Assembly (NCBI GenBank): GCA_947034885.2
Contig: OX344750.2
Location: 1,364,001 to 1,428,000, forward strand
Direction of reading: 5' to 3'
Source: Thuidium tamariscinum
Taxonomy: Eukaryota; Streptophyta; Bryopsida; Hypnales; Thuidiaceae
Length of the DNA stretch: 64,000 nucleotides
Made by a program: the position numbers and the translations under genes. Below are positions 1-36,195 of the stretch, one piece after another. The notes under the pieces were generated by a model. The model saw only the letters and a program-made list of their open reading frames with translations, had not been told where the DNA came from and made no database searches. Positions within the stretch are counted from its first letter, which is position 1; every line of letters begins with the position of its first letter.

Positions 1-195
1 CAGTCGCCCCACCGAGACCCGCAGTCGCCCTACTGAGACCCGCAGTCGCCCCACCGAGACCCGCAGTCGCCTCACCGCGACCCGAGGTCGCCCCACTGCA
101 ACCCGCGGTCGCCCTACCAGACCCGCGGTCGCCTACCTCCGACTTCGGCATTCGCCCTGTACCCGTGGTCGCACCACCTATAAATGCAGTCGCCC
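1..195 (+). promoter_or_regulatory. GCGGTCGCC-type repeat array 1, upstream of the RING gene
   Basis: About ten irregularly spaced copies of a short GC-rich word (core GCGGTCGCC, with GCAGTCGCC and GAGGTCGCC variants, usually preceded by ACCC) run from the window edge to about 195. They read in the same direction as the gene that follows. Spacing varies, so this is not a simple satellite. The array may continue left of the window. By comparison with the other arrays here it is probably an upstream promoter module; that function is inferred. Confidence 0.7.
179..185 (+). promoter_or_regulatory. TATA box of the RING gene
   Basis: TATAAAT lies between the last two array repeats, about 160 bp before the ATG at 340. 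A degenerate copy of the shared downstream tag (TTGGCTGCATGCATT, 246-260) begins 67 bp further on, matching the spacing at three other genes in the window. Confidence 0.5.
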
Positions 196-339
196 CCTCA
201 TGTTACCTTCATTCTCCGTCGAGGCTTCTCGTCTTGCAACCTTCATTGGCTGCATGCATTAACCTTTGGATGAATATTGACTATTTTCTCTATTCGGCTA
301 CGTTTTCATGATTCCTTGTTATCGAGTGCAACAAATCCC

Positions 340-2838
340 ATGGCTTCCGAAGGCAACAATCTTGTGCCACTCCCGGTTTCGACCAACACACGCGCCCCTC
401 GTGCGGTCAGGAAGGCTGTCATCGACAAGGGTCGTAAGCGTAGAGGCAACACTCATAGAAAGCGATGGCATGTGTTGAGAAATCCAAACCACCCTGCTTT
501 TAAAGGGTGGGATGAGGAAGAAGAACCATGGACGATGCAGACTTGTGAAGAATACATTGAATGGTGTCACATTGATAAGTTGTTTCCACCATGGCGTCAT
601 CATTTCAATCGACACACCAACAAAGCGAACTTGAAGTATTGTGAAAATGCACCTTACGTTCAAAGGTGCATCGAATTGTGGCAAGTCCTCTACAAAACCC
701 CTTTTGTAGAGAGGAATGAAGTGACTCTTTTCATTGCCCGAGGAGCATATGCTGAGCTTGTTTTGAAGAAAGAAGTAGATTGGTCCACTATCAAAGAAAC
801 TGCCTACGTGGAACGTCCAGAGACTGGATTAATACCAAGAGGGGTATTGAAATTTCTAGAAGGTGGACTTGGACCAATTCGAAGTGATCCTCAAAACAAG
901 GTAACAGAACCTGAAACTGAAGAATCTGAAGAGGACAATGACTCTGATGGCACACGACCTCCAAGAAAAGAGCGAGTCAAGCAACAAATTGTCACTCCCA
1001 CTCAAGTGCAAGTTCCAAATGTTGAGGGGGCTTCTGCATCACGAGGATCGAGACCAAAACGTCCTACCAAGGTTCGACGTTCGACCATTCAAATCGGACC
1101 TTCATCAAACTCAACAACACTTCCCACGCGCCCGTTGCCAACTGGTAACACAATCGATGTCTTCGAGTTTGGTGCAACTGATGATCCCCCCGTGGAAGTT
1201 TCCGCGAATGTTCCTATTCACATTCCTCCATCTCAAGAAAATTCAACTATGGCTCTATCTGAGGCTCTGGACCTCTTGAAGACCAAAGACGCCACAATCG
1301 CTTCAATGCAATTGGACCTGAAGAAATTGCAGTCTGATTTGGACCATAAAAACGCTCTTCTTTCACAGCAGTCCAAAGATCTTCAACGTCTTCGACAAAA
1401 AGAACGTGAGACGATCACTTTGTCGGATATGGATGATGGCTTTGGTGAACAGGATCCACATCATTTGGACAAGGTTGTGGCAGATGTCACTAGCGGTCTC
1501 CTCCATTGTTCTCCACCTGTTGCTAAGCGTACAAAGCGTTCTTCAATTATTCCAACCACGTTTCTTCCTACCATCATGGAAAAACATACCGTCGACCCCA
1601 ACGATGTCGAGGAAACCCAAGATTCTCTTTCATTTCCTGCGCCTACGCATCTCTTATCTTCAACAAAGAAATTGGATCTTCGAGAAGAAAACAACATACT
1701 ACGAGCACAGTTGGCTCAATTGGCAGCCACATACTATCATTGGAAAGTTGCTTGTATTCTCACCGTGGATAGATCACAACAAATAGCTCAAGAATTGGAC
1801 AAAGTTGCGAAGAACTTCGTTGCAAAGGCCCCAAAGCGTGAGAATGGAATGACATCGTGGCCATTGTTGGAGGACATGTTTCCTGAGAACCTACCCATGG
1901 TGAACGCAGAAAATGGAGGAATCAATTGGGCACAACTTGGTTGGGACTACGAAAAACAAATGTCGTGCCACTTGGATGAGAAAGAACGACAACTTCTGTG
2001 GCCAAAGCCAGCAAGCTTTGTTTTGGACCATATAAAATGTCCTATCTGTCTGGAATCCTTTGGCCCTGAAGGAAGTTGGGCATTGGGATCATGCATGCAC
2101 GTTTACCATCCTCAATGTCTCATTGTGCAATGCCTAATAAGGCGACGTTGCGTGATTTGTTCGGCACCATTTCATGATCGTTTGTATGCCATGTTCAACC
2201 TAATGACATATATGCCACCTTCATGGGAACACAATGGTGAAACAACTATGGATACAAGATTTTGGGGGCGAGATTTGTTGTGGAGCTGGCGTGAAGGCCA
2301 ACATGATCAAGAAAAAGGACCTGCTAGCTCTCAGTTGAATTGGGAAACTGATCCTGATGAAATTCTTCGAGTTGCACCTCGGCTCATGGAAGCAGGCCCA
2401 CGTAACGAGGGGAGGAGGGCATTTTTTTTCCAATGTCTCGGTGGATATTTTGATAAGACCTCTGCAACCTTCAAGTGGGGCCCTCATCCACTGAAACATC
2501 GTTGGGATTTAGAAGGGAATAGAGTGGCCAACCAGGACTCAAACGCCTCTCTTGAAGACTTAACTAGTATGGCGTACCTTGACTCTACATATGGGCCATA
2601 CTACACAAGTCAAGCCCTCGACTTTCTATTGGAACAACACTCTCCACAAACTGCAAGGACTCTTGAAGCTTTGAAGGATTCCAATGTTTTAGAGTCCATT
2701 TTGAGTGAAGATGGTCCAGCTTCTCGTACTCGTGTGAAGCGTAAGCTTGACGTTGAGGAATCATCCAATTATGAGCATGGTGAGGCAAGTGGTGCACTGG
2801 TGCCCAAAATAATGCACATGTTGTCACCTAAATATTAG
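340..2838 (+). CDS. WCHIDKLF-family protein with coiled coil and RING-H2 finger (possible E3 ubiquitin ligase)
   Basis: Intronless ORF of 832 residues from ATG 340, which has a good context (cccATGGc). The open frame extends upstream to a TTG, but this ATG is the credible start. Residues 31-43 are strongly basic, a likely nuclear signal. Residues about 48-155 form a domain shared with two other genes here (6656-8146 and 24721-26112), with WCHIDKLF at 75-82, then ANL, QRC, an RNEV-like motif and VDWSTIK. A heptad-rich coiled coil follows at about 304-356. Residues 567-611 form a RING-H2 finger: CPIC, then SCMH, YHPQC and RRCVIC supply the C3H2C3 ligands. RING-H2 proteins are commonly E3 ubiquitin ligases, so ligase activity is plausible but inferred. 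I do not recognise the N-terminal domain. No frameshift is seen. The gene lies behind array 1. Confidence 0.8.
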   Translation: MASEGNNLVPLPVSTNTRAPRAVRKAVIDKGRKRRGNTHRKRWHVLRNPNHPAFKGWDEEEEPWTMQTCEEYIEWCHIDKLFPPWRHHFNRHTNKANLKYCENAPYVQRCIELWQVLYKTPFVERNEVTLFIARGAYAELVLKKEVDWSTIKETAYVERPETGLIPRGVLKFLEGGLGPIRSDPQNKVTEPETEESEEDNDSDGTRPPRKERVKQQIVTPTQVQVPNVEGASASRGSRPKRPTKVRRSTIQIGPSSNSTTLPTRPLPTGNTIDVFEFGATDDPPVEVSANVPIHIPPSQENSTMALSEALDLLKTKDATIASMQLDLKKLQSDLDHKNALLSQQSKDLQRLRQKERETITLSDMDDGFGEQDPHHLDKVVADVTSGLLHCSPPVAKRTKRSSIIPTTFLPTIMEKHTVDPNDVEETQDSLSFPAPTHLLSSTKKLDLREENNILRAQLAQLAATYYHWKVACILTVDRSQQIAQELDKVAKNFVAKAPKRENGMTSWPLLEDMFPENLPMVNAENGGINWAQLGWDYEKQMSCHLDEKERQLLWPKPASFVLDHIKCPICLESFGPEGSWALGSCMHVYHPQCLIVQCLIRRRCVICSAPFHDRLYAMFNLMTYMPPSWEHNGETTMDTRFWGRDLLWSWREGQHDQEKGPASSQLNWETDPDEILRVAPRLMEAGPRNEGRRAFFFQCLGGYFDKTSATFKWGPHPLKHRWDLEGNRVANQDSNASLEDLTSMAYLDSTYGPYYTSQALDFLLEQHSPQTARTLEALKDSNVLESILSEDGPASRTRVKRKLDVEESSNYEHGEASGALVPKIMHMLSPKY

Positions 2839-6655: not shown

Positions 6656-8146
6656 CTATTGCTCAAAAAAATCACTCTCTTTGGGTTCTGGCCCCATCTT
6701 CTGTATATCTACACGTTTAGCGCCTTTAGCTGTAGTACGTAGGCTCCAATGCCGCCATGCACTCTCAAAACGGATTTCAGACTGCAATTTTGACGACTCT
6801 TGTTGTAAGACAAGAGTTTTCTGTTCGTGCAGTTTAACAAGCTTTAGAAGTGTTGATAACTCTTCTGGTGTGTTGCCATATTCAGGAGCTATAGCTGAGA
6901 CATCTAGTGTCGAGGCACATTGTATTGCAGCATTATAATACTCTCTTTCTTTTGCATCTACTTGCAAATTGACCCCTCTCCTTTCATTCTGCACCCGCCC
7001 ACGTTCATGTTCCAAAATCTTCATTTTCTGTTGAAGAACAGTACACTCATCCATTGGAAACAAACGACCCTCTGCTTTCTTTTTCCAGTAATTATCTCTG
7101 CTTCTCTTCAAAGTAGCAAAGCGCGAGTCATTTTCCGAGATGCCGTTTTGTAATATCTTCAACTCTTCTCTCAATCCATGTACCCCAGCTGCATCTGATG
7201 AAGTTGATAAACGAAAGTTTCGTATTTTTTGGAGAGCTTCAATTTCCTCCTTTGTTTCTTGCAAACCCAAAATTGCACTCTGTATTTTAGCGTACAATAC
7301 ATCTGCATCGTCTTCCAAGTCGCTTCCACTTCCACCGCAGTGACCCACCAAACCATTGTGGTCTACTTCCATAGGTTGTACTGCCTGTATACGTTGTGTG
7401 CCTTCATTGTGGATATTTTCACCAACTACAAATTCTTCAACCTTCTCTTTTCCCTTGTTGGCAATTTCCACTTCCAAGGCCACCTTTCTTTCTCCCATAA
7501 CATCATCTTCAGTGTCGCTTTGGAAATCATATCCATCATATTCGTGGGTATGCTCATCTGAGCTAGAATTTGGCGACCACACAATTTCGGCATTAGAAAC
7601 GGCCAGCCTTCCCAATTTCACAGGCATTAGTGTGTTCTTGACATCTGCTAATGCAACTTCATTCACAATCGATGTTTCTTCAGGACGATCTCCGATGGGG
7701 TGCCCCTTCAAGGTACTCCAGTCCACGTTCTTCTTGAGTATGCATTCAGCATATACCATTTGGACAAGATACAAAGAGAAATTGTCATTTCGATAAGGCT
7801 TAGGCTCATCGTACAACCTCGTCCATACAGCTAGACATCTTTGCTTGAAAGCCTCGTTGGTGCAATATCCAAGATTTGCCTTGTTTTGTGTCAAGTGTAT
7901 CTTGTGACGCCATAGCGGAAACAACTTATCAATGTGGCACCAATCCACGTATTTGTTTACCGTTTCGTAACTCCAAGGCTCAGGTTCTGCTCTCCAGCCT
8001 AAAAAAGCCTTTATCTTTGGATGCAAAAGCAAAGGCACACGCTTCTTGCGACTTTTTCCACCCCTCTTACGACTCTTGTCACGAACCGCCTTATTCTTCA
8101 ATCCAAGTACTAGTTTACATGGGGCAGGTGGAGGCTTGGCATCCAT
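6656..8146 (-). CDS. WCHIDKLF-family coiled-coil protein
   Basis: Intronless ORF of 496 residues. The start is the ATG at 8146: its product begins MDAK, like the paralog at 24721, whereas the frame upstream reaches only a TTG. Residues 22-37 are highly basic (a likely nuclear signal). The shared domain covers about residues 40-150, with WCHIDKLF at 69-76, then RHKIH, NKANL, QRC, MVYAE and VDWSTLK. Next comes an acidic, serine-rich linker (about 200-285), then long heptad-like helical segments (about 285-315 and 330-410), which suggest a coiled coil and self-association. There is no RING, unlike the gene at 340. I cannot assign a function; nuclear location and a scaffolding or DNA-associated role are inferences. 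A minus-oriented array (8440-8690) lies upstream. Confidence 0.75.
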   Translation of the reverse strand: MDAKPPPAPCKLVLGLKNKAVRDKSRKRGGKSRKKRVPLLLHPKIKAFLGWRAEPEPWSYETVNKYVDWCHIDKLFPLWRHKIHLTQNKANLGYCTNEAFKQRCLAVWTRLYDEPKPYRNDNFSLYLVQMVYAECILKKNVDWSTLKGHPIGDRPEETSIVNEVALADVKNTLMPVKLGRLAVSNAEIVWSPNSSSDEHTHEYDGYDFQSDTEDDVMGERKVALEVEIANKGKEKVEEFVVGENIHNEGTQRIQAVQPMEVDHNGLVGHCGGSGSDLEDDADVLYAKIQSAILGLQETKEEIEALQKIRNFRLSTSSDAAGVHGLREELKILQNGISENDSRFATLKRSRDNYWKKKAEGRLFPMDECTVLQQKMKILEHERGRVQNERRGVNLQVDAKEREYYNAAIQCASTLDVSAIAPEYGNTPEELSTLLKLVKLHEQKTLVLQQESSKLQSEIRFESAWRHWSLRTTAKGAKRVDIQKMGPEPKESDFFEQ

Positions 8147-8431: not shown

Positions 8432-8470
8432 CACGCAATCAGCCACGTCTAGGTGGGTGATTCTCAATGC
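8432..8470 (-). promoter_or_regulatory. Conserved downstream promoter tag
   Basis: On the minus strand this reads GTGGCTGATTGCGTG (8446-8432), preceded by CACCCACC (8459-8452). The same pair of words lies below the arrays of the genes at 14299 and 24721. It begins about 69 bp after the TATA-like word at 8515-8510, the same spacing as at the other genes, so it probably lies in the 5' UTR. Confidence 0.6.
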
Positions 8471-8690
8471 GTTGAGAAGGAGTGGCAACTGCGGGTAAGG
8501 CGACTGCGGTATATAGCCGTAGTCGCCTAGGGGCGCGTGCGGGTAGGGGCGAGTGCGGGTCCACCTGAGAGGCGACCGCGGGTAAATTCACGAAGGGCGA
8601 CCGCGGGACTGGCGACTGCGGGTCCTGCAAGGGAGGGCGACTGCAGGTCCCAAAAGACTAGCGACCGCGGCTCTGGCCTTCGTGGCTTTC
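8440..8690 (-). promoter_or_regulatory. GCGGTCGCC-type repeat array 2, upstream of the minus-strand WCHIDKLF gene
   Basis: About eight copies of GCGACCGCGGGT or GCGACTGCGGGT, the reverse complement of the plus-strand arrays, lie 0.3-0.55 kb upstream of the ATG at 8146. Relative to its gene the repeat therefore has the same polarity as arrays 1, 3, 5 and 6. A TATATA word on the minus strand (8515-8510) is embedded near the gene-proximal end. Confidence 0.7.
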
Positions 8691-8703
8691 TTACTTTTTT
8701 CAT

Positions 8704-9185: not shown

Positions 9186-9195
9186 TGACATGGCT

Positions 9196-10680
9196 CAGTG
9201 AATGGGGAAGGGTGAAAGGGTTTAGGGTCTCTACCGCAAATCCTAAACCCTAGTTAGGGACTTGTGAGGTGACACTTGGGTGATTCAATCAAGTGGTGGA
9301 AGAAATAAAAAAAATGGGGAAGTCAATGACTTCCCCATTCATTAAGGTTGGCTGAATGGAGGTGATTCAATGCTAAGTGTGGGAGTTGGGAATAAAAAAT
9401 AAATAAATGAATTAATGATGGGGAAGTACAATTATACTTCTCCATTCATTAATGAAGGAAGGGCTAAGTGAATGGGGAAGTTGGAGTAAAATAAAAAAAT
9501 GGGGAATTAATGTGTTGGGGTAAAATTAAAAAAGAAATAAAAATGGGGAAGGGTGAAAGGATTTAGGGTCTCCACCGCAAACCCTAAACCCTAGTTAGGG
9601 TCTTGTGAGGTGACACTTGGGTGATTCAATCAAGTGGTGGAAGGAATTTAAAAAATGGGGAAGTCAATGACTTCCCCATTCATTAACCCCTAAAGGACCA
9701 AACTGTGTTTTTTGGCAACATAGCAATTTCGGGCAGCTCATTACAGATAGAGTTTTTGGTTTTTATTTTTGAAATTTTTACACAACATGTGTCCAAGGAG
9801 TACCTTCAAGGTCCAACAATTTTCATAACTTTTGACTACATAGTGAAAAAGTTATTGGCTAATATGTAATTTGCTCTACTCGGAGGGCAGTCTGGGCAGC
9901 AAAAAAAACTTCTTCAAAAATTAATTTTTTAAGAAATTAAAATTTTAAATTGGTTTCTTTGATTTTTATAGAAGTGGAAACCTTTGAATCATTCCATTTT
10001 GATTAATGAGTCAAAAGTTATGAGGATTTTTAGTTTGAGGTAGTTTACGCTAGATATAAAATTTCTACACTACAAAAAAAGTTTGTAAATCTTTATTAAA
10101 TTCAATTCTTTATATTTTTGAAAAAAAATAAAAACATTGGGTGTATAGTGTTTAATCCAACATTACAACCGTTGGGATTGTCTTCTTTTAACTCTATAAA
10201 TAAATTGTTAATAATTTAGTGTTTTGGCTCATTTTCTACTTCTTTCTACTTACTATTTTTTTCCTATATGTTGTACAATTTCAAATGATCTAAAAATTTT
10301 TAAGCATGTGTCCAACTTCACTTGAAAAATGAATCCAAAGAGTTACTATCATTTTGGACATTTTTCCACACAAATAAGGTCTTTTGAAGTGCAGCTGCCC
10401 GGATTTCCGCAGTGGTAAAAAAATGATTTTTGTCACTTCAAACACTAATATCTTGCAATCTACACGGCAAAAATTGCTGAAAATTTTTCCACATATTCTT
10501 AAACTTGTTCTCTAAAAGATCCAACGGTTATTTTTTTCAAAAAATGTTTTTTTCTAAAATTTTTATAGTTGTCTAAAAAATGACAGTTTTGAAGCAGTTT
10601 TGGTGAAAACATAGTCAACAACCTTTAGGGGTTAAGGTTGGGTGAATGGGGTGATTCAATGCTAAGTGTGGGAGTTGGGA
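9196..10680 (+). repeat. Tandem duplication of about 345 bp, second copy interrupted by a TTAA element
   Basis: Copy 1 (about 9196-9541) and copy 2 (about 9542-9686 plus 10632-10680) share the order GAATGGGGAAGGGTGAAAGG, a CCCTAAACCCTAGTTAGGG block, a short inverted repeat GGGAAGTCAATGACTTCCC, and GATTCAATGCTAAGTGTGGG. The CCCTAAACCCTA word equals less than two plant telomere units, too short to call a telomere remnant. Copy 1 preserves the empty site of the element inserted in copy 2. Confidence 0.7.
9687..10631 (+). mobile_element. TTAA-targeting TIR element (family 1, piggyBac-like non-autonomous)
   Basis: This 945-bp insertion is bounded by TTAA on both sides (9683-9686 and 10632-10635), with terminal inverted repeats CCCCTAAAGG and CCTTTAGGGG. 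Copy 1 of the surrounding tandem repeat holds the uninterrupted target with a single TTAA (9342-9345), so the insertion and its TTAA duplication are directly visible. A TTAA target with a CCC-starting TIR is the piggyBac signature; no transposase is encoded, so superfamily assignment is inference. Confidence 0.75.
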
Positions 10681-10984: not shown

Positions 10985-11849
10985 TTGTTCCATATAGATG
11001 GCGACGGTCCTATTGCCACACGAGATTTTCCTGAGGGTTGTGTGAGATTGCCGAGGAAAGTCACGAAGAACACCACAAGGCCACAATCAGCGGGAACTCT
11101 TGAGGGAGAGGCAACTTCAAACCCTAATGGAGCAGGAGCCTATGCGGTAGATGGAGAACTACCAAGAGATTTTGACCAAGTCAGTGTCAGGGTTCAATTT
11201 TTGCAGCAATGTACTCTGTAGTCCCGGATCTTACAGCATTATCAAAAACTCAAGACGAGGGGTCAGTTGCTTGGTAATCGGCCTGACTTGCAGGCAATGA
11301 AGCAGATGAATGAAGAAAGAAAATCTAATGAGTTTCAAAAGTTTGGTCACGTTCCCGGAATCGTAGTCGGTGATCAATTTGAATTTTGGTCCGAAATGTT
11401 TGCCTTTGGGCTTTGGGTTGCACCGGCAAGTGCAAGGAGGGATTGTATGGGTTGAAGATTGAGGGGAGAAGGTGGCTTGCAGCGTGGTGATCTCAGGTGG
11501 TTACCAAGATGATGATGACCATGGGGAGACAGTCAAATACATTGGCCAGGGTGGAAACGATTACAGAGGTGACAAGCGGCAATTGGAGGATCCGAAGCCC
11601 AAGAAAGGGAACAAAGCGCTTATTAACTCCTACAAACGTGGGGAAGTTGTTCGTTTGATTAGGGGCCATGATGTGGACGCTGGATGGAACAAAATCTATT
11701 CCTATGATGGATTGTACAAGGTAAAGCGTTACAACCTTGAGGTGGCACGAGATGGTCACAAGGTGTACACTTTCAATGTGGAGAGGCGAAAAGGTCAGCC
11801 CCCATTAGACACTGAAAAGTGGAAACGTCTCAAGAGTCTCAAGAAATGA
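10985..11849 (+). pseudogene. SUVH-type SRA-domain fragment, copy 1
   Basis: A decayed reading frame contains the SRA (SET- and RING-associated) domain of plant SUVH histone H3K9 methyltransferases, which binds methylated DNA. Recognisable parts are RPDLQAMKQM, VPGIVVGDQFEF, then after a frame change GLHRQVQGG-like sequence, VISGGYQDD, GQGGNDYRGDKRQLEDP, GNKALINSYK, VRLIRGHD, YSYDGLYKV and YNLEV. Damage includes an in-frame TAG at 11219, a frameshift near 11424, and TGA at about 11455 where copy 2 has CGA. No pre-SET, SET or post-SET domain follows; the frame stops at 11849. It is best read as a non-functional partial copy. Confidence 0.75.
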
Positions 11850-12540
11850 GTATTTCAAGCGGCTTTGACGTTGGGGGTGTCACGAAGGTTAGAAATTACT
11901 AACATGTCGTTTTTATTGCCCACATTACCAACACTTGGGTGCGCACCAGACCGATCTCATTCAGTTCTTTAGCTTTTCCTTAGACTGATTACTTTGTTGC
12001 CTCTCGGCTCCTCGCAGCAATCTTTTTGGATTTGTGGGCCGAGGCTTTCTTCTTGCTTGCAGGATCCTCGAGAGCGCTCCTCCTCCACCACGAATGAGTT
12101 TGTGGAGCTGCTGTTCTACCAATGGCTCCCCCAAATTGCCACCTTGGGGTACTCAGCTCTGGCGGTCCTCATCATCTACCTCGTTGTCCATTTTCTCATG
12201 AAGCCGTGATTTCCAGTGCTCTGTTAGGTCAGGTCCTACTGTAGGGTCCTGACGCTTTCGTGATTTCTTCCATGAAGACAGTACTGCTGAATTCTTAGTT
12301 TGCTCTTCTTAGTTTGTTTGCTCGATGAACTTCCACACGACCACACTCCTGTCTCCCAGATTTGAGGGTAGCAGAACTTCCCGTGATCTTGCAATCCGCA
12401 ATGTAGAATGGAATTGATTTGGTCCTTGCGCACGGTTGGGAGGATGCAACTAGCATGGAATTCAAGCCCTAGTGATGGTTCTGGCGTGGTGCCTTCTTTT
12501 CAGGTAAATGGAGTCTCTGGGCCTCTCATAGCTGGTCGTA
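11850..12540 (+). other. Spacer between the two SRA fragments
   Basis: No confident gene. One open stretch (11994-12209) could encode a C-terminal hydrophobic segment (around residues 50-70), but it has no recognisable homology and no ATG of clear merit. The segment may be part of the unit duplicated with the SRA fragments. Confidence 0.35.
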
Positions 12541-12936
12541 GTGGGGGATGAATTTGAGTTTCGAACTGAAATGTTTGTGGTTGGGTTGCACCGGCAAGTG
12601 CAAGGAGGGATTGCATGGGTTGAAGATCGAGGGGAGAAGGTGGCTTGCAGCGTGGTGATCTCAGGTGGTTACCAAGATGATGATGACCATGGGGAGACAG
12701 TCAAATACACTGGCCAGGGTGGAAACGATTACAGAGGTGACAAGCGGCAATTGGAGGATCCGAAGCCCAAGAAAGGGAACAAAGCGCTTATTAACTCCTA
12801 CAAATGTGGGGAAGTTGTTCGTTTGATTAGGGGCCATGATGTGGACGCTGGATGGAACAAAATCTATTCCTATGATGGATTGTACAAGGTAAAGCGTTAC
12901 AACCTTGAGGTGGCACGAGATGGTCACAAGGTGTAA
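12541..12936 (+). pseudogene. SUVH-type SRA-domain fragment, copy 2
   Basis: A second, nearly identical copy of the SRA core (FEFRTEMFVVGLHRQVQGG, VISGGYQDD, GQGGNDYRGDK, GNKALINSYK, VRLIRGHD, YDGLYKV). This copy retains the intact GLHRQVQGG junction and the CGA codon broken in copy 1. It ends abruptly at 12936, where VYTF of copy 1 is replaced by a stop and an AT-rich tail with polyadenylation-like words (AATAAATC near 12999). It contains only the SRA core and no SET domain, so it is a truncated copy. Confidence 0.7.
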
Positions 12937-14155: not shown

Positions 14156-14165
14156 CTTGGCCATG

Positions 14166-23113: not shown

Positions 23114-24042
23114 CCCCTAAAGGACCATTGTCCCCTCGGAGGACAATTTGGAGTTTGGGCAGGTTCCGTAGACCTCAATTTTTAATGAATCTTGTTGAAA
23201 CTTTCTCAAAAGATAGGAAAATTGAGTACCTTCATGGGAATGTAATTTTTATTTCAATTGGTGACCGGGAGCAAAAGTTATACCACAAAAAGCCCAAATT
23301 TTCATTCGGCGGGCAGAAATTTCTTTTTGCAAAAACTCAAAATTCCATTTAAATTTTTTTTTCTTCTAAAATAACATATTTTTGCCTACATGTGAAGCTT
23401 TGATTCACTCTATTTGGACTTATAATGAGAAAGTTATGGACAATCTTGTTTTTCGGGCAATCTAAACAATTTCTTGAATGAAAAAATAACTTATAAGATT
23501 CATTTTAGAATGCAATTTTTACAATTTAAAAAAATAAAAATTTGGACAAGGTTATGTTTACTTTCTAGAACAATCTCACCATTGGGATTATTGTATTTCA
23601 ATCCCATCTTAGAGTTATTAACCATTTAGTTTTTCTTTCAATCTTGGACCTACATCTACTTAACAATTTTTTAAAGAATGAAAATGAAGTGTTTTTTGAG
23701 TGAATTTTTTTTCCTAGACTCTCAACTCAATTTCTTAACACAAAAAATTATAAATTCAAAGTCTATAGTGCAGTCTTTTGATACCAATTCCAGTCAAAGT
23801 CATCTGAAATTGCAAACCACAGTTCAAAAAAACTTGTATTTCCAACTTTGAATGCTCATATCTTCCAATCTGTACGGTCAAACTTCATGAAATTTTTACC
23901 ACTTCATATCAATCAAGTTAAGTACAAGATCCTACGGTTAGATTCTTATATATATATATATTTTTTGTTTTCTTGGATGAATGCAATAGAAATGGCAGTT
24001 TTGAGAGGTTTTTGACAGAAAAAAGGCCTTGGCCCTTTGGGG
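23114..24042 (+). mobile_element. TTAA-flanked TIR element, family 1
   Basis: Flanked by TTAA at 23110-23113 and 24043-24046. Ends are CCCCTAAAGGACC and GGCCCTTTGGGG. The left end (CCCCTCGGAGGACAATTTGG, TTTGGGCAGG) matches the reverse complement of the right end of 26634-27556, so these are two copies in opposite orientation. No transposase is encoded. Confidence 0.65.
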
Positions 24043-24231
24043 TTAAGCTTATGAAAGGATTTGCTTATTGTTGAACAAAAACTATTTTTCTCAAACAATT
24101 TAAGAAATGATTTGGGCATTTACATGTCAATATCTTCAAGAGTCTTTGGTGGATTCAGCCAGCTGCCTCCAAAGTTTTAGGTGGCCAAATAATTTTTGGG
24201 GGCAATTTCAAAGCCCTTTATTTTCTTACCA

Positions 24232-24545
24232 GGAGGCGCGGTCGCCCCACGCGCGGTCGCTGGAGGAGGGAAGTTTGAACTTCCCGCCTAACCCGCGGTC
24301 GCCTGACGCGCGGTCGCTAGAGGAGGGAAGTTTGAACTTCCCGCCTGACCCGCGGTCGCTGGAGGGGGCAGTTTGAACTTCCCGCCCGACCCGCAGTCGC
24401 CAGACCCGCAGTCGCCTGACGCGCGGTCGCCCCACGCGAAGTCGCCCACGCGCAGTCGCCCCCTACCGGAGGTCCCCTCTCCCTGTACCCGCACTCGCCC
24501 TTGTGCGACTTCGGGTGCATAAGCAGTCGCCCCCACCCGCATTCG
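24232..24545 (+). promoter_or_regulatory. GCGGTCGCC-type repeat array 5, upstream of the third WCHIDKLF gene
   Basis: Dense short repeats including an internal tandem unit of 45-57 bp present about three times between 24249 and 24400. Each carries GCGGTCGCTGGAGG or a variant and TTTGAACTTCCCGCC. The spacer word GAACTTCCCGC also occurs in array 4, so some arrays share spacers as well as the core. A degenerate TATA-like word (GCATAAGC, 24517-24524) precedes the last repeats. Confidence 0.7.
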
Positions 24546-24560
24546 CCATTTTCGCTTTGT

Positions 24561-24599
24561 GCACTGTCTGTTACCCACCGCGAAGTGGCTGACTGCGTG
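24561..24599 (+). promoter_or_regulatory. Conserved downstream promoter tag
   Basis: GCACTGTC (24561-24568), ACCCACC (24573-24579) and GTGGCTGACTGCGTG (24585-24599), in the same order and spacing as at 14166-14205. GTGGCTG begins 68 bp after the TATA-like word at 24517. Confidence 0.6.
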
Positions 24600-24720: not shown

Positions 24721-26112
24721 ATGGATGCCAAGAAGAAGAAGGTGAAGGCCAAAGGAAAAAAACAAAGAAGGCAACGCCACATCCTTCTTGATCCTAATGC
24801 GATGGCTTATCCAGGTTGGGATAGAATTCAAGGTGATTGGACCGCGACCACTTGTAAGGGATTCATTCAATGGTGCCACATCGACAAGCTTTTCCATCAT
24901 TATCGGCACAAGATTCATGTGCAATCGAATGTGGCAAATCTTCATTCATGCACTCATGACACATTTGTGCAACGATGTATTGAAGTTTATCGGTACTTGC
25001 ACAACACACAGACCGTGCCGAGAAATGAAGTTCAATTGTACCTGTGTGAGATGGTGTATGCGGAGGTCATCCTCGGAAGAACGGTGGATTGGAGGACCAT
25101 CAAGGGATCGAAGATGGCCACCATTCCAACAACCAAAGACATTCCTAGAGCGGGTCCCTCCCCCAATCCAAGAGCAGGGCTAGGAAAAAATCTTTTCATC
25201 AAGAATGTAGTGCCTAATGATGAGTATCAGTGGTCACATCACGCGAGTTCGGATGAAGAGAATGAACCATTGAATGAATTATTGGATATGGCCAAGATGG
25301 AAGAGCCACCTACAAAATTGGAAGAAGTGGTGGCGCCTCTTCAAATGCCATTGCTTGATGTGGAACAAATGTCGGGCATTGAAGAAAAGCTTGAAGATGT
25401 AGATTATGAAGACCTGAAAGAGATTCACAAAGATCATCTCGAGCTACTTCTTCAAGACTTGGAAGAGAAGCAGAAAGAGTTAAAGACTCTACAGGACGAG
25501 GCTATGGAAGATTTGGATGATGGAGTTCCAACCCTTCTAGCCCAAATTGAAACTGCTCGAATCCAATTGTCAAAGCAACATGAGGAGATGAAGAACTTGG
25601 AAGCGTTTTATCTTAGCTTCTATGGTTCTCAAGATGGAGCTTCTAGTTCTAGGGTCGATAACCCAATTACAAAGAAAAGACTTGCAAAAGCCATGGAGGA
25701 CTACCAGAAAGAACATGATAATTGTGACCGTGAGAAAAGAGGTCTTGAAGAGGCACAATTGAGGTTGACACACCTTTGTGAGATCACGGACAAAGCCCCA
25801 CTTGACCGTGTTGTTGACATGTACGGTTGGGGAGACTTTTGTACACAACATGAGATGACCCCCTTGGAAGTAGAGGAATTGAAGAAGAAATTAGCTGCTT
25901 CTCTTAAGGTGGAAAATGAGTTGCAAGAGACAGTGGATAAGCAAAAGACAGTCCTGGAGATGCAGAAAGCAACTAAGACAGCTTGGTTACGTGGAGAGTG
26001 GTGCAAACATGACATTCTATCCAAGCTCAAGAGTGAACAGAAGGTGGCTTGGTCCCAAATATTAGCTAAGAGGCAGAAGAGAGAAGAAAAGGGCAAAAAA
26101 AATGTTGAGTGA
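24721..26112 (+). CDS. WCHIDKLF-family coiled-coil protein
   Basis: Intronless, intact ORF of 463 residues beginning MDAK, like the paralog at 6656-8146. Residues 4-19 are almost wholly basic (a likely nuclear signal). The shared domain spans about 22-128: GWD, WCHIDKLF at 51-58, RHKIH, ANL, QRC, RNEVQLYL, MVYAEVIL and VDWRTIK. An acidic linker (about 165-230) leads into long charged heptad-rich segments (about 225-300 and 335-460), so most of the C-terminal half is probably coiled coil. There is no RING or other known domain. Conservation of only the N-terminal domain across three otherwise diverged paralogs marks it as the functional core of the family; its activity is unknown to me. Array 5 and the shared tag lie upstream. 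Confidence 0.75.
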   Translation: MDAKKKKVKAKGKKQRRQRHILLDPNAMAYPGWDRIQGDWTATTCKGFIQWCHIDKLFHHYRHKIHVQSNVANLHSCTHDTFVQRCIEVYRYLHNTQTVPRNEVQLYLCEMVYAEVILGRTVDWRTIKGSKMATIPTTKDIPRAGPSPNPRAGLGKNLFIKNVVPNDEYQWSHHASSDEENEPLNELLDMAKMEEPPTKLEEVVAPLQMPLLDVEQMSGIEEKLEDVDYEDLKEIHKDHLELLLQDLEEKQKELKTLQDEAMEDLDDGVPTLLAQIETARIQLSKQHEEMKNLEAFYLSFYGSQDGASSSRVDNPITKKRLAKAMEDYQKEHDNCDREKRGLEEAQLRLTHLCEITDKAPLDRVVDMYGWGDFCTQHEMTPLEVEELKKKLAASLKVENELQETVDKQKTVLEMQKATKTAWLRGEWCKHDILSKLKSEQKVAWSQILAKRQKREEKGKKNVE

Positions 26113-29100
26113 CATGGTAGTTTTTGAGCATTTTGAGAACCACAACGTATTTTTGTAATTACATATGTCTATATTTGATACCTTTCGGTTTATACATTGT
26201 TGATGTTGTGATGAATTGTTTAACTCCTAGTTTTCAAATTTGCTAAAGGCATGATTGATTGCAAGTAATTGGTGAGCAATTTTCAAAAATTCATTGCATG
26301 GATATGTAGGAGATAGGAATTATTGCTATGCACAACATTGGCTTAGAATTGCATCTCCAAGAATGCTTTGGAATACATGTGTTAACATTTGTATATTGGG
26401 ATAATTCCATATTAATTTCCGTATCAAAGTTTTTTCTCTAATACAATCACTTTTTGCACATCACATGGTGATTTGTTTGTAAATTTTAATGTGATGGTCT
26501 TATTACATAGAAAAAATGAATTTAACAAATGTAAACATCCATCTCTTCAAAGTTTGGTTATATGTGACACTCTCACAGTATTCATTGACATGTCAATGAT
26601 CCTATTATTGTTCTTGAATGGGATGTCTATTAACCCCCAAAGGACTGAGGCATTTAGTGGCTTGAAACCACTCAAAATTGCCATGTTTGCTACTTCCTCC
26701 CAAGAAAACAATTTAAAAAAAAATTAGAATCTAACTATAGGATCTTGTAAATTACTTGTCTGAGATCATGTGGTAAAAAGTTCATGAAGTTTGACTGCAC
26801 AAATTGGAAGATATTAGCATTCAAAATTGTCCAAATAAGTTTTTTTGAACTCTACTTACAATTTCAGATGACTTTGATTGCCATTTGTACAATTTTTTTG
26901 CAATATGGAGTGTGAAGTTGAAATTTTTTATATTGAACATTTGAGTTGAGGATTAGGGAAATTTTTTAAAAAGAAAAAATACTTGATTTTTATTCATTAA
27001 AAAATTGTGAAGCAAAAGTAGGTCCAAGATTGAATAAAACAATAAGTGCTTAATAACTTTAAGATGTAATTGGAAAACTATGATCTCAACGGTGAGCTTG
27101 TTCTTGCAAACATCGTGAACTGAATCAAAAATTAAAATTAGGAAAATTTGGGAAATTGTATTCAAAAATACATTCTATAAGTTATTTTGTGAAGAAGGTG
27201 CTTAGATTGCCCGAAATACAAGATTGTCCACAAGACCATAAATTTCTCATTATTAGTCCAAATTAAATCAACCAAAGCTTCAAATGTAGAAAAACAATAT
27301 AATCTTAGAGAGAAAAAATTAAAAATTAAAAACAATGTTTATTGTGTTTTTTTTGGGCTTAGTGAACTGTTGTTTGGACTTGGAATGGCATAAGTTTTGC
27401 TTCGAAGCACCAATTGAAATAAAGATTATATTTTTAGAAAGCTAATCTGATTTCCTATCTTCAAAAGAAGTTTAAGAAAATCATAGCAAAAATCAAGTCA
27501 CAAAAGCCTGCCCAAAATTCCAAGGGTCCCCCGAGGGGACTTTAGTCCTTTAGGGGTTAATACAAAAGGTGATAGTGTGGATGTTCCTTAGTCCTTACAT
27601 ACAATATATAGCCTTGCAAATGAATTACAATTAATAATCACATATTCAAAATTTTTGATTGAAGGCCATAGGAATTAAATGAAATAAAATCATATGATAT
27701 GATTTTTTTTAAACTTTGATTTAGTTAGATACTTAGATTGATTGGGTTTTTCACCAAGCATTGAGTGTTAGAAATGCAAGGTCAGGAAGACTTTTTTTCC
27801 TGTGTAATGTAACAATCTTTGAATGCCTTTATAATAGGATGAACGTTGGATTTTTTTGATCAACTTATATTTAACCTTATAAATGCTAAAATATTAATGA
27901 AAAATATGAAATGTGATATATTGTTACTTATAAAATACAGACTATCATTCTAATTGATTGACTTTGCATTGAATAGCATGAATCATTTGTTTTTCAATTG
28001 ATTACTATTATATTCATCATATACAGACTACATGGCCACAAAGGGTTTAGAGGCCCTTGTAGAATAAAAAATAGGACATTTAAAAGTTTCTAATACTTCT
28101 TGAATATGAAATGTCCAAGCTACAAAAATCCAATGTTTGTCAAACTTTGAAGTTGAACAAAACCTAACGAAGTTGCTATTTTCAATACATTATATTTCAG
28201 AAAATTTCTTTTTGAAGTCAACTTTTAGCTTCAATTAAATAAATTTGGAAAAGATTGATTATGATTTTTCTATTCAAGATACCTTACAAGGGGGTCCACT
28301 GCAATCATGGTCTTTTACAATGTTTAGAGCTATTGGACATGAGTTATCAATAAAATACAGACATACAATACATCGTGTAGGAAAAATCCTATTAGAAATC
28401 GATTTGAGAATACAGAAGAATACATTCCTAAGAAACAAAAATAGATTAGAATGATGTATGTAGGGCCTCTGCACTGCATTTATTTTGGCAACCAATTTGA
28501 GATTTGAGATTTCACATTTGAAAAGAGAATTAGAACCCTTCAAATTGTTTTTGCTACTTTTATAAAATCAAATATTATAATCTTTTAATCCATAAGTGAT
28601 ATTGTTTTTCCGAAGTTCTCTGTAACATGTGTGCTTTAAATTTATTTGGTTATATCTTCCAAAAAATGGATAAATTATATCAAATTGTTTACTACTCATT
28701 ATAGTTTTTAAATCTTTGTAGATGTTGAACAAAAGATTTCATTAGGAATTCAAGGATTTTTTTACCCACTTGGGAGCTAATCAAATATTTTTGAAGCAAT
28801 GAATGCCAAAGCTAAAAAAATGTGGTGTTTCAAAAAATTGGAGGAATAATCTAACCTTATAATATTGCTTGTTTTAGAATTTAGAATTTTCAAATATTTA
28901 TTTTTCCAAATTCACTTGAAGCATAAAAAATTTTGATATTAGAAATGATAGATTGTGATTTTTCATTGAACATTCTTTGTAAATGTGTCATTGCTTTCTT
29001 CACTTTCTAGTTTCTATAGGTACCTTTGTGGAAATGTGGGGCTCTATTGAATGAGCGTGAAATACACAATATTTTTGGAAAAAAAAACAAATTATGTTAG

Positions 29101-30815: not shown

Positions 30816-30817
30816 GG

Positions 30818-31035
30818 CATGCGCGGTCGCCCTACCTCTGGACCCGCGTTCGCCATGCTTGCGGACCCGCAGTCGCCCTCCAGACCCGAGGTCGCCTTCC
30901 CTTTGTACCTGCTGTCGCCCCCCTAAACGCGCGGTCGCCTCACCAGTGGACCCGCGGTCGCTAAATTAGCCGCGGTCGCCCCTCCAAATTCCAGAGTTTG
31001 CCCCTTCACCCGCAGTCTCGTGTGGGGCGACCGCG
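30818..31035 (+). promoter_or_regulatory. GCGGTCGCC-type repeat array 6, upstream of the hAT-like gene
   Basis: About eight plus-oriented repeats (GCGGTCGCC, GCAGTCGCC, GAGGTCGCC, GCTGTCGCC) and one inverted copy (GCGACCGCGGGT at about 31027). TATATAT at 31055-31061 follows, 226 bp before the ATG. The GTGGCTGA tag seen at four other genes is not found here. Confidence 0.65.
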
Positions 31036-31286: not shown

Positions 31287-34200
31287 ATGGTTGGCCCTGG
31301 TGGGGGGCAGGGAGCAAGCGATACACGGAGGGCCACAAAAGATTGGGATCCTTGGCTCATACCATGTACACCTGACGATAATTCGAATTATCCTCGGAAA
31401 TGTGTATTTTGTGGATGGAGCAAAGTATTTGTACGGAAGAGGGCATTTAGTCACTTTGGATATGGTGGATCGACAACATCAGAGCGTTGTCCTAAAATCC
31501 CTAGGACTGTGAAGAACAAGTTTTTAACATGTGGTGGGGTGGTTCCTAAAGCCATGAGCTTTGAAGAAATGTATGAGGCACCATTAGTTGGTGCCCCAAG
31601 CAATGTTGAGGGTGAATCCATCATTCAAGAACTAGAGCACATAGAAGTGGGAGGCCGTGGGGATCCTATTGGCTTGAACGAAAGTCAGACTATCGGCCCT
31701 GACTCAGTGGATTCTACTCCAGCTATGGTCGAGAGAACAAGGAGTGGCCCTTCAACTTCTCGTCAAAGAAGTATGGATGAATCATTACAAGTGGGCCTCA
31801 GGCAGAAGTTGGATAGGGTGTGGTCCTCTTTCTTTTACGAGGCTAACATTGCGTTCAACGTTGTGCGACACCCTGCCTTCATCAAGGCTGTGAAAGAAAC
31901 TGCAGCGGCTGGATTCTTGTATCACCCACCCGCAATGAACGCAATCCGCACAAAAATGATTGATGTGAAGAAGGCAGCGGTGAAGAAAGTAGTCACTGAG
32001 CGGACAAAACATTCTATTGCCCAATATGGTGCAACTATTTGTACAGATGGATGGTCAGATACCAATAGACGTCCATTGATGAATATGATGCTTGTTTGTC
32101 CAGCCGGGGATACTTTTTTGGGATCAGTGGACAGTACGGGGCATAAAAAGGACCTAGGGTATACGGTTGAGATGTTGACAAAATACATAGAAGAGGTCGG
32201 TCCAGCCAACATTGTCCAAATGTGCACAGATAATGCCCCAGTAATGACGGGAGCTATGACAAGCTTGGAAGAGAAGTACCCTCACATGTATAAACAAGGA
32301 TGTGCAGCTCACATTCTAGATTTACTTTTGGAGGATTGGGGAAAGGATCAAAGAGTGAAGGATTTGGTCAAGGACTGTAGGGAAATGGTAAAGTTCGTTC
32401 GAAAATACCACTTCACACTAGCTCTTTTTCGGAAATGGTCACCGAAGAAGGTATTGAGACTTCCAGGAGCAACACGCTTCGCTACCAATTTTCTCATGAT
32501 AGACCGATTAGTGGAATGCAAGCAAGCTTTGCACATGGTGATCGCAGACGAGGGGTATATGGCATTCGAGTTCAGTTTGAATGTCAGACAAAATGGACGT
32601 ATGATGATGCGTAGAGCAAAAGATGTTCGACTGAACATTCATTCGGAAGGGTTTTGGATAAGATGCGAGAATTTCTTGCACATGGTAGAGCCCGTGCTCA
32701 TTGCTCTACGGCACTTCGATGGAAAAATCCCAGCAATGCCAAAAGCTTGGATAATCATGAAAGACTTGAAAAAGCATGTATATTCTCTTAGGGAGCCTCC
32801 TTTTCTTTTGACACCGAACGTTGCAACACGCTACGAGAAGAAGTTTGATGCTCGTTGGAAGTTAATGCTAACAGACCTCCACTATGCTGGTGCCCTATTG
32901 AATCCATTTTTGGTGGATGTAGCAGACATTCAAGATGATGGCAGTGCCAAGCGAGCTTTAAATCGAGTCATTCGAAAATTGGCCCCTACATTAGGAGTGT
33001 CAGTGGTGGAGGCAATGCAAGAGTTGACGCAATTTGAAGAAAAGACAGGTCCATTCGACCCTTTAGAAGAGGCTCCTGATATTACTCAATGCAACTTATT
33101 GCCTCATCAATGGTGGAATCGAGTAGGTGGTAATGCTCTTCCGAAGATTGCAAAGAGAATTCTAGGCTTGACGTGCTCAACATCTTCATGCGAAAGGAAT
33201 TGGAGCATGTATTCGTTTGTGCACAGCAAAGTGCGGAACCGCCTAACCACATCCAAGGCAGAAGATTTGGTCTATATCTACACCAACAGTAAATTGGAAC
33301 GTGAAAAACGTGGACACAACCCTGCCCTCTTTTATGAGAAGTATCTTGATGGAGGAGATAGTGAGGAAGAGGACGACGAGCCCTTGCATTCTGCATCAGA
33401 TGAAGAGATTGGTTTTGATTATTATGAAGCCAATGTAATCCGTAGAGAAGAAGAGGATCGCTTGCGTAATAATCCTTGGAATGCAATGATCCCCCACGAC
33501 CGAGTTCGCCTGAATACCCTACTCGAGAAACATATGCGGGTGGCGATGATCGGAACAATTCCATTGATGAAGAACTTTTTCGTTCTCCAGAGGCTGACCG
33601 TGCCCATGTGTGGAATGGAGTGTGGTCACCAAATGCACCATCAAATGTGGGGGAAATTCCTGTTGATAACAACGAAAACGTGGCTCATCCAATGCCACCA
33701 TCACATTCTCAAGAGAGATCTCCAGTACCAACACGTATTCCTTTGAGTGATTCAAGGAATCCTTTGAATGTTGGACAAGCTAGCGTGGGAAGTGAACAAG
33801 AAGAAGAAGCTCCCGTCCAGCAAGGAGATGTCACGGGGATTCTAATTTCCAGAACGATGAATCCATCAACCACCCAAACTACAACAGCTTTGGAATATGA
33901 TTCAGATGCGCCATTGAACAGTGTCATATATCGCAATCCTCGCAGGAACTCAACTCCAGCTACAGTGAGAAGGTCGGTTCCAAGTCCTTCTAGAAGGGTG
34001 CCTCCAATACCATCCACTACGGAAGTAGTACCACAATCTGCTCCACAACCTACCCAAGTGACATCAATGTCATTCCCCGGACAATCATCATTGGAAGCGC
34101 ATACACGCAATACCGGAGGGAAACGACGGCGTATTAGAAGGGTTGATGAAAGGACACAAGGGAATCCAAAACGTGCTAACCATGTTGTTCACAAATATAA

Positions 34201-34522
34201 CATGGCGGTGGAGGGCTCTACGCAAAGAGTTGGGCAATCAAGTACTGGAGGTCGGCCTCCTTTATCTATTATTGATGGCACTACAGATGCAACGAGGCCT
34301 ACAAAACGGTTAGTACGAGTTGAAAATGTAGGAGGTATAGATGTTCAGGTGCGAAATTTGCACTCAGAGGTAGAACGTGAAATACAAGCTGAGCCAATAT
34401 TGAGAGAAGATGACGAGAATGAAAGCTCGGATGGCAATAGAGGCAGTGGCGAGTCAAATGGAGAAACAGACCCTAATGTCGATGAAGTTGAGGGTGATTC
34501 GGATTTTTCACCAAGTGATTAA
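31287..34522 (+). pseudogene. hAT/DUF659 transposase-like protein with a frameshift near 33490
   Basis: ATG 31287 opens an 819-codon frame to 33746. Order: a BED-like zinc finger (CVFCGW, then a His-containing segment, about residues 38-58); a DUF659-type RNase-H-like core with YGATICTDGWSD (Asp about 253) and IVQMCTDNAPV (Asp about 314), the first two acidic positions of hAT transposases; CAAHILDLLL; and the C-terminal hAT dimerisation region with SSCERNWS (about 635). Near the CCCCC run at 33490-33494 the natural acidic, Ser/Pro-rich tail continues in another frame (33476-34522, ending GDSDFSPSD). Thus a 1-nt indel, or less likely a programmed slip, splits one protein of about 1,080 residues. 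It could be an autonomous transposase or a domesticated copy. No TIRs were found around it. Array 6 precedes it. Confidence 0.7.
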
Positions 34523-36027
34523 ATGTGCAAGCAGCAGTCTTGAGAAAAAAAAAGTATTATAAAGATCTTCGACAAATGTTTTGTATTGAAGATTAGAAGT
34601 AGAAGTTTATAGGCTAGTACCTTATGTGTGAGCATTTTGTAGTGCTTCATTAGATAATTATACATGTTATAGCGAGACTCACATAAATCCATATTATTAT
34701 TTGTATTTGAAAGTAATTAGTTGATGGTAGTAGGCAATTTCAAAATAGCAACGCAGACAAATCTTTTTTTGTAGACTCTTTGAAGTATAATGATAATACA
34801 TAAGTTATGAGTTTATTATCACTATTTTGATTTTGAGTACTACTGATTTGTATTTCATTAATGTAAAGTCCTTAGACATCCGTTTTTGAATTGGAGAAGA
34901 AGAAATGAGTTACAAAATTCTCATCCTTCATTGTTCAGAATTATGTAGTAGGGAACTCATTATGATTTTGTAGCACTTCCAATGGTTTTGAACAGGGTTT
35001 AGAAGTACCTAAGTGTAAATCCTTGAGAATCATTTGGGATCTTTTAAATCAAGAGTAGATTAATAGATAGGGCCAATTAATCTCTACCCACTCAAACACC
35101 ATTTTTTAGCAACCTGGCAATTTTGGGCTATTCACTATGAATGGAGATTTTATTATATTCTTTCGAAATTTTCAAACAATATGTGTCCAATGAGTAGCTT
35201 TGAGGCCCAACAATGTTCATAGCTTTTGACAACATGTTTTAAAAGTTATGGCATAATATGTCACTTCTTTAATTCATTTAATTGGTGGATACTGGATAGT
35301 ACGGGTAGTCGGGTAGAAACAAAAAATTCTTTAAAAATAATTTTTATAAGAAGTAAAACATTGATATTGGTTTATTAGATTTCTACCTAAGTGCAAAGCT
35401 TTGAATCATTTGATTTTGATCAATGAGTCAAAAGTTATGTCGAGTTTTAGTAGGAGTATTTTGTGACTAGTTATAGAATCTCTACACTACAAAAGAAGCA
35501 GTTCTTGATCCTTTATTAAATTTAGTTTTTTACATTTGGAATAATAAATAAATAGTAGGTGTAGATTGTTTATTATAATATTTTAACCATTGGGATTGGC
35601 ATTTTCCAATTCTATGAATCAATTGTTCACAATTTGGTATTTTAGCTCTTTTCTACTTCTTTCTAGTTATTATAATCTTTTATACGTTGTACAATTGACA
35701 ATTCTAAATGATTTGAAATTTCTTGAGCACGTAGCCAACTTGCCTTCAAGGATGAATTCAAAGTGTATCAAGCAATTTGAACTTTTTTTTCATACAAGTG
35801 TAACCTTGTGAAGTGTAGCTTCCAGTATTTTAGCATTGTTAAAAAAAAAATTTGTAACTTGAAATGGAAATATGTTGCAATCTGTATGGTGGAAAATTCT
35901 GAAAGTTTTTCTATATCTTTTCAAACAAGATTACTATAAGAATATAAGATCCTAAGGTTGCATGTGTTAAAAAAAATGTTTTTTCCCCTAAGTCTTGGTG
36001 CATGAAGTAGAAATCTCATTGCCACCC
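34523..36027. other. 3' flank of the hAT-like gene and AT-rich spacer
   Basis: The first 300 bp are probably 3' UTR. The rest is AT-rich with a decayed family-1 element at about 35085-35990. No gene seen. Confidence 0.5.
35085..35990 (+). repeat. Decayed family-1 TIR element
   Basis: Sequence from 35085 (ACACCATTTTTTAGCAACCTGGCAATTTTGGGC in part) follows the intact element at 9687-10631 through its whole length. Shared blocks include TTTCTACTTCTTTCTA and GAGTCAAAAGTTATG. Terminal repeats are eroded, so the boundaries are approximate. Confidence 0.5.
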
Positions 36028-36195
36028 TAAACCCGCAGTCGCCCCTCACCCGAGTTCGCAGTCCTCTAGGACCCGCGGTCGCCCACTGGAACCCACACCC
36101 GAGGTCGCGCACGGGAACCCGCACCCGAGGTCGCCCTAAAGCCGCAGTCGCCCTGCATTTGGTACCCGCGGTCGCCCTCTCTTCACCCGTAGGCG
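36028..36195 (+). promoter_or_regulatory. GCGGTCGCC-type repeat array 7 (gene displaced or lost)
   Basis: About seven repeats (GCAGTCGCCC, GCGGTCGCCC, GAGGTCGC) in plus orientation. A partial internal repeat, GGAACCCACACCCGAGGTCGC followed by GGAACCCGCACCCGAGGTCGCC, is present. No ORF follows before the copia nest begins at about 36.3 kb, so any gene once downstream has been displaced or lost. Confidence 0.6.

Follow-up and report, generated by a model that had tools for sequence, protein, structure and literature searches.

INTRODUCTION

The usual picture of a hAT element is a transposon of a few kilobases with a single transposase gene, and Ac of maize has one gene. Among other mobile elements, Starships carry a tyrosine recombinase, Polintons/Mavericks carry polB and integrase, and Teratorn is a piggyBac with herpesvirus genes. 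The Ac transposase binds subterminal AAACGG hexamers within the terminal 200 bp of the element, according to the passages of PMC3260210 that concern it, and the usual preference of hAT-derived proteins that combine BED with Hermes-type domains is for CGG or CGC (passages of PMC8097297). TNPA of Spm binds subterminal repeats and also carries a suppressor function (passages of PMC2613891); thus, a subterminal-repeat binder can also affect transcription. A review of giant transposons (PMC6431247) does not contain the whole word "hAT" in its main text.

We analyzed a 64,000-nucleotide stretch of Thuidium tamariscinum DNA (here, the window; C2:1364001-1428000) in which a hAT element differs from these systems in scale and organization. 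Like Ac/Ds of maize, the element has CAGGG-type terminal inverted repeats (TIRs), an 8-bp target site duplication (TSD), a hAT dimerization domain, and a repeated word near its ends; unlike Ac, which is 4.6 kb (passages of PMC3260210), such elements measure 29 to 38 kb here, carry five genes, and have the word at every gene promoter as well. The CACTA elements (Spm/En; soybean Tgmt*) resemble it in the way they work, with subterminal repeats bound by a TNPA that has suppressor function and a possible size of 20.5 kb, but the element described here has hAT ends and a hAT transposase, an 8-bp TSD rather than the 3-bp TSD of Tgmt*, and five separate genes (passages of PMC2613891). ToxhAT of wheat-pathogen fungi, at 14 kb, is likewise a large hAT element with additional genes; however, it is under half the size, has other cargo and a fungal host, and a promoter-and-terminus word is not mentioned in the relevant passages of PMC9594970. 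Starships, Polintons/Mavericks, and Teratorn share with our element a size of tens of kilobases or more, several genes, and discrete ends, but their enzymes differ from the hAT transposase found here. CGGBP and other domesticated hAT DNA-binding proteins are host genes, whereas the candidate binder here is a transposase within mobile copies. In searches of the open-licence PMC literature, such a size, the five-gene set, and promoter use of a terminal word were not found, and the nearest large hAT element was the 14-kb ToxhAT (PMC9594970). The hAT superfamily itself is known; the variant appears to be new in these three respects.

RESULTS

Extent and insertion site of the element

Positions 1 to 36385 of the window are nearly all of one giant hAT transposon (element W; C2:1363535-1400385, i.e., window -465 to 36385; 36,851 bp), as delimited by TIRs, a TSD, and an empty site. 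The left end (C2:1363535) is thus 465 bp outside the window, and the right end (C2:1400385) is at window position 36385. The TIR CAGGGTTTTCT, of the CAGGGTT type, is present at both ends (the right copy, at 36371 to 36385, reads CAGGGTTTTCTTGTC inward), and the 8-bp duplication TCTTCAAC flanks the element on both sides (right copy, 36386 to 36393). The insertion host was copia DNA whose uninterrupted form exists nearby: the joined flanks, minus one duplication, matched uninterrupted copia copies at seven places (97 to 99% identity over 106 to 112 bp). The window copy is almost certainly a giant hAT element of the cut-and-paste kind. A CACTA assignment was rejected because the ends are CAGGG with 8-bp duplications rather than CACTA ends with 3-bp duplications.

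About 10.2 of the 36.9 kb of the element is coding. Three AT-rich elements of 931 to 953 bp (window 9683 to 10635, 23110 to 24046, and 26630 to 27560), bounded by TTAA and with CCCCTAAAGG-type inverted ends, are presumably piggyBac-like nonautonomous insertions. An SRA-domain (methyl-DNA-binding) fragment occurs twice in W (11361 to 11773 and 12536 to 12941; 95% identical; SAD_SRA, 3.7e-25 on 11490 to 11846) and seemingly once in element D (see below); it is possibly a captured piece of a host gene. A 158-aa basic open reading frame (ORF) at 13135 to 13611, with no Pfam family above the cut-off, lies on the minus strand, opposite to and upstream of array A3. On both sides (window 36386 to 64000 and C2:1334001-1363534), the element is surrounded by copia retrotransposons nested in one another, with tandem repeats of 60, 70, and 90 bp.

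Arrays of a 13-bp word

A sequence-only reading of the window had reported seven arrays of a degenerate word, and all seven were found where it had placed them: ACCCGCGGTCGCC with at most 2 mismatches occurs 67 times in positions 1 to 36200, compared with a mean of 0.05 and a maximum of 1 in 20 Markov shuffles. Sequence beyond the left edge shows that the first array begins about 150 bp outside the window and that an eighth, outward array is located at -314 to -163.

The best-written form of the word is A(C/G)(C/G)CG-NN-GTCGCC (13 bp; 83 units), in which the central pair is variable (CG, 35; CA, 24; AG, 11; CT, 7; others, 6). Among 71 GTCGC-anchored sites, an A stood seven bases upstream in 69, a C at -4 in 66, and a G at -3 in all 71. 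The core GTCGC/GCGAC occurs 10 times in positions 1 to 36200 beyond the arrays. Only the 13-bp word is shared from array to array; the spacers are little conserved, and the unit period varies by array (about 15 to 26 bp, with higher-order periods of 41 to 99 bp). The observed/expected CpG ratio was 1.06 to 1.20 in the arrays, 0.48 to 0.69 in the genes, and 0.21 to 0.33 in three AT-rich spacers.

Five of the arrays lie upstream of a gene: A1 (about -150 to 173, plus strand) precedes the WCHIDKLF-RING gene, A2 (8484 to 8672, minus strand) the WCHIDKLF-b gene, A3 (13883 to 14152, plus strand) the kinase-like gene, A5 (24234 to 24547, plus strand) the WCHIDKLF-a gene, and A6 (30819 to 31020, plus strand) the hAT transposase gene. 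As the sequence-only reading had noted, each has the polarity of its gene, including the minus-strand array A2, which stands before the minus-strand gene at 8146 to 6656. The left terminal array (-314 to -163), back to back with A1, and the right terminal array A7 (36031 to 36197, plus strand) both point outward with no element gene behind them. Array A4 (19969 to 20559, plus strand) is an orphan without a recognized gene behind it and is present in element D too.

A conserved five-gene set

The genes behind the arrays had been taken to be of unrelated types. They are instead one conserved set belonging to one transposon family, and the same five (those for a hAT transposase, a kinase-like protein, two coiled-coil proteins of the WCHIDKLF type, and a WCHIDKLF-RING protein) were found in all five complete elements described below. 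In the orientation of W, their order is WCHIDKLF-RING, WCHIDKLF-b (reverse), kinase-like, WCHIDKLF-a, and hAT transposase. Between the two families of elements (W versus B1), dN/dS was 0.12 to 0.40 across the five genes, at dS values of 0.8 to 1.5, where synonymous estimates are near saturation.

The WCHIDKLF-RING gene (340 to 2838, plus strand) is open in W and encodes 832 aa (dN/dS, 0.24); its RING domain falls under the Pfam cut-off and has an RNF24 match at 1.3e-5. The Pfam scan assigned no family above the cut-off to WCHIDKLF-b (6656 to 8146, minus strand; ORF of 496 aa; dN/dS, 0.27) and none to WCHIDKLF-a (24721 to 26112, plus strand; ORF of 463 aa; dN/dS, 0.40). The WCHIDKLF proteins are about 45% identical to one another in their N-terminal domain. 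The kinase-like gene (14299 to 15879, plus strand; dN/dS, 0.15 and 0.12 for two parts) has an in-frame stop at 15301 in W, where Pkinase scored 4.6e-10 on the second half, compared with 1.1e-12 on the uninterrupted B1 copy (527 aa). In the alignment, the protein retains HNDLSPRN and DFG.

The hAT transposase gene (31287 to 34522, plus strand) consists in W of two ORFs in different frames (31287 to 33746 and 33692 to 34522), with DUF659 at 3.6e-36 and Dimer_Tnp_hAT at 1.1e-6; both domains were above the cut-off in B1 too. Its dN/dS was 0.17 over the first 736 aligned codons. A weak Hermes match (E, 0.052) aligned CxxH and a C-terminal E. Pfam detected no BED domain in the W and B1 proteins; the hAT ORF contains a CxxC...H...C stretch, a putative BED-like N-terminal finger. 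The kinase-like and hAT genes look broken in the window copy, by the stop at 15301 and a 3' frameshift, respectively. An open hAT frame of 1,082 or 1,134 aa, with no stop within the match, was found at 20 of the 55 scored hAT loci.

Pfam families for protein-primed DNA polymerase B, retroviral-like integrase, and tyrosine recombinase were absent from the sequences scanned, which comprised 5 proteins of B1 and 8 ORF pieces of the window, smaller overlapping ORFs aside. A Polinton/Maverick was rejected given the lack of a polymerase B or integrase family in these sequences, and a Starship was rejected because the scanned proteins included a hAT transposase and no tyrosine-recombinase captain.

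Two families of elements in the genome

The genome searched (363.2 Mb; 19 contigs) is that of a photosynthetic host, with 49 chlorophyll a/b-binding matches. With at most 1 mismatch, the word consensus had 3,077 + 3,270 matches, compared with 46 + 56 for a reversed control. The first 100 exact matches listed, all on C1 below 21.13 Mb, were grouped into 12 clusters (99 matches) and one isolated match with no array around it. Near-equal internal spacing in two of the C1 clusters suggested dispersed copies.

The five long clusters that were fetched all proved to be complete giant hAT elements of 29.4 to 37.6 kb, with CAGGGTT... TIRs at both ends and 8-bp TSDs, and they fell into two families: W (W and D) and B (B1 to B3). 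Element D (C1:5387914-5425549; 37,636 bp), flanked twice by CTTTCAAT, is mostly 94 to 98% identical to W (terminal piece, 83%). B1 (C1:7134478-7163927), B2 (C1:12734489-12763877), and B3 (C1:13974691-14004680, reversed) are all complete and align almost end to end with the same ends, at about 98.4% identity for B1-B2 and mostly 96 to 97% for B1-B3 (one 441-bp end piece, 89%). The family B ends are CAGGGTTGT inverted repeats, and their duplications are exact in B1 and B2 and have one mismatch in B3. Thus, four of the five TSDs are exact (TCTTCAAC, CGCACTGG, GTAACAAC, and CTTTCAAT) and one has a single mismatch (CAACCGGG/CAGCCGGG).

Two short C1 clusters are fragments from a right end, one matching W (97.4% over 2.8 kb) and the other B (96.4% over 4.4 kb), and the cluster at 16.50 Mb has an array followed by a W-like terminal repeat at its end (89% over the last 205 bp). 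The remaining five hold listed kinase, hAT, or RING copies and are tied to the element on coordinates alone. With these five so assigned, all 12 C1 clusters among the exact matches listed below 21.13 Mb go with the element.

Copies of individual genes were scored as lower bounds: at least 55 for hAT among 831 candidates (42 W, 13 B), at least 54 for RING among 1,319 (41 W, 13 B), and at least 120 for the kinase among 580 (46 W, 74 B), together forming at least 122 loci on 11 contigs (grouping gap, 45 kb). The transposase-side end had 441 genome matches at up to 3 mismatches (control, 0). Within 60 kb, RING was linked to the kinase at 38 of 41 W and 13 of 13 B loci, hAT to the kinase at 39 of 42 W (37 on the same strand, 2 opposite) and 12 of 13 B, and hAT to RING at 34 of 42 W (33 on the same strand) and 7 of 13 B. 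Loci without such linkage may be fragments or have partners beyond the scored lists.

The sequence-only reading had interpreted the arrays as a promoter module that is mobile or has been taken up repeatedly by genes of different types. In the genome search, 99 of the 100 exact matches listed lay in element-linked clusters. The membership of all 12 of these C1 clusters in the element and the co-occurrence of the five genes at fixed distances and on fixed strands in most scored loci both argue against recruitment; genes and arrays belong together to one hAT transposon with TIRs and 8-bp TSDs.

Polarity of the arrays across elements

The five complete elements contain 43 arrays of at least 3 units. 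Of these, 25 are at genes, 10 are terminal, and 8 are orphans, with a single orphan in W, another in D, and a pair in every B element. The array-gene polarity seen in the window extends to all 25 genes, each with a same-strand array upstream, and an outward array is found at 10 of 10 element ends, in an inverted arrangement. The distance from an array to the first aligned residue is 147 to 406 bp, a value overestimated for B1 RING and WCHIDKLF-a, where the queries start late. The same consensus is common to terminal (102 units), gene (253 units), and orphan (73 units) arrays. In B1 to B3, an antisense array (B1 positions 22991 to 23536, W orientation) lies intermingled with that of the hAT promoter, and no gene was recognized on its strand.

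Relative to RING, the kinase has the same orientation in all 38 linked W loci and the opposite one in all 13 B loci, a contrast between two independent families, copies inside one family being close relatives. The kinase array in B1 to B3 is inverted together with its gene. No other observation speaks as strongly as this inversion for array and gene being a single directional unit.

Promoter anatomy

A good TATA-like box stands at the array 3' end in three of the five window promoters (178; 8516, with array A2; and 31054, with array A6) and is weak in the other two. Downstream of the arrays are short promoter blocks: TGGCTGCATGCAT after A1 (247 to 259, plus strand), ACCCACC...GTGGCTGATTGCGTG after A2 (8432 to 8458, minus strand), and those after A3 (14179 to 14205, plus strand) and A5 (24573 to 24599, plus strand). 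A block of 27 to 42 bp just past the array is common to the kinase and the two WCHIDKLF promoters of the window (0 of 2,000 shuffles for each of the three pairs), so that copying or exchange of promoters within the element is likely. Block similarity was not significant in the other 7 of 10 window promoter pairs (98 to 1,742 of 2,000 shuffles). A looser block, TGGCTG(A/C)NTGC(G/A)T, occurs exactly four times in each of the five elements, after the RING, both WCHIDKLF, and the kinase arrays, and is absent at the hAT gene in all five.

The block shared by the kinase and WCHIDKLF promoters is what a module recruited by unrelated genes might leave, but the lack of significant similarity in 7 of 10 pairs adds to the evidence from the genome search, and we regard that explanation as hardly credible. 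The earlier promoter interpretation is supported in part, by the upstream position and polarity of the arrays, the shared block, and core constraint in two of three comparisons; recruitment by unrelated host genes is not supported.

Constraint on the word

Positions within a unit of either copy compared were counted as core. Two of the three pairs of copies showed less divergence at core positions than in the array spacers: W-D (30/649 versus 123/1,081; P = 4.7e-7) and B1-B3 (18/523 versus 56/751; P = 0.0015); the difference was not significant for B1-B2 (16/520 versus 35/872; P = 0.23). The central pair of the word changes at the spacer rate or above. Array spacers are more divergent between W and D than the rest of the element (0.118 versus 0.027).

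This fast spacer divergence, together with unit periods that differ among arrays and so indicate local expansion, would also be expected if the arrays were functionless, GC-rich, satellite-like repeats hitchhiking in the element. However, the arrays have the 13-bp word alone in common and not the spacers, the positions flanking the spacer-like central pair changed less in the two comparisons above, and position and polarity have been held across two families (dS, about 0.8 to 1.5) and across an inversion. A satellite origin without function is therefore very improbable.

DISCUSSION

The best explanation, to which we assign a probability of about 0.7, is a five-gene giant hAT element in which the word serves as a control site at the ends and at the genes. 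The arrays are probably promoter and subterminal sites. A(C/G)(C/G)CG-NN-GTCGCC would be the element's own control site, bound by one element-encoded protein: the outward end arrays are most likely subterminal binding sites for transposition, and through the gene arrays, an element-encoded DNA-binding protein would most likely set the expression of the whole element. A single word that points outward at the ends and follows the direction of each gene is what a binder encoded by the element and put to two uses would require. Several observations count against this explanation: 8 of the 43 arrays are orphan, Pfam finds no BED domain, the B1-B2 comparison gave P = 0.23, good TATA-like boxes are present at just three of five window promoters, and the block is missing at hAT. 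In addition, short GTCGC/GCGAC words less than 100 bp from both ends (four elements checked) run in the same direction along the element near the TIRs and are not inverted. A pure promoter role is at odds with the 10 terminal and 8 orphan arrays, which have no recognized gene downstream.

The likeliest binder would be the transposase, by way of its putative BED-like N-terminal finger, at close to even odds; a WCHIDKLF protein is the second candidate and an unlikely one. Transcription is expected to start from the array ends, an expectation that, like the choice of binder, is built on the observed architecture (the element, its ends, arrays, and polarity). Binding by an element protein would then activate or repress.

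Tentatively, and at somewhat worse than even odds, we propose a fuller scheme in which a single protein, either the transposase or a WCHIDKLF partner, would recognize the 13-bp word at the ends and at the five promoters and would thereby couple movement to the expression of the transposase, kinase-like, and RING proteins. The accessory proteins would serve the element (e.g., by countering host silencing or helping to mobilize unusually long DNA) and would not be captured passengers.

The same giant element could instead have arrays read by a host transcription factor, the word being a host motif for expression in a tissue or cell-cycle phase and the terminal arrays acting as outward promoters or boundaries rather than transposase sites. 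The five TTGAACTTCCCGC words in the window (20141, 20240, 24275, 24332, and 24373) all lie within A4 and A5 and resemble what we take to be E2F-like plus CHR-like cell-cycle sites, as a host factor might require. The TATA-like boxes at the array 3' ends of three genes and the long, GC-rich consensus, which we infer to be like some host sites, point in the same direction. However, 99 of the 100 exact word matches listed were found with the element, and arrays stand at both ends, the place of known hAT transposase sites (passages of PMC3260210); a host factor is a distinctly improbable reader, and we favor an element-encoded one.

Elements of 29 to 38 kb with more than 100 copies and five co-conserved genes raise the question of how a cut-and-paste mechanism moves such a length and why kinase-like and RING proteins are kept. 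Because the word is shared, self-regulation by a transposon can be tested directly here; its terminal recognition site would double as a promoter code for all genes. In plant genomes, a GC-rich island that holds intronless genes can be the sign of a giant transposon, which annotation would break up into genes without apparent relation.

Among the listed ends, a third variant of the terminal repeat (CAGGGTTGTCTTGTC...) is found repeatedly, at C1:20418197 and C1:20472083. None of the exact word matches listed fall across C1 18.04 to 21.12 Mb, which suggests that a third family may use another array word.
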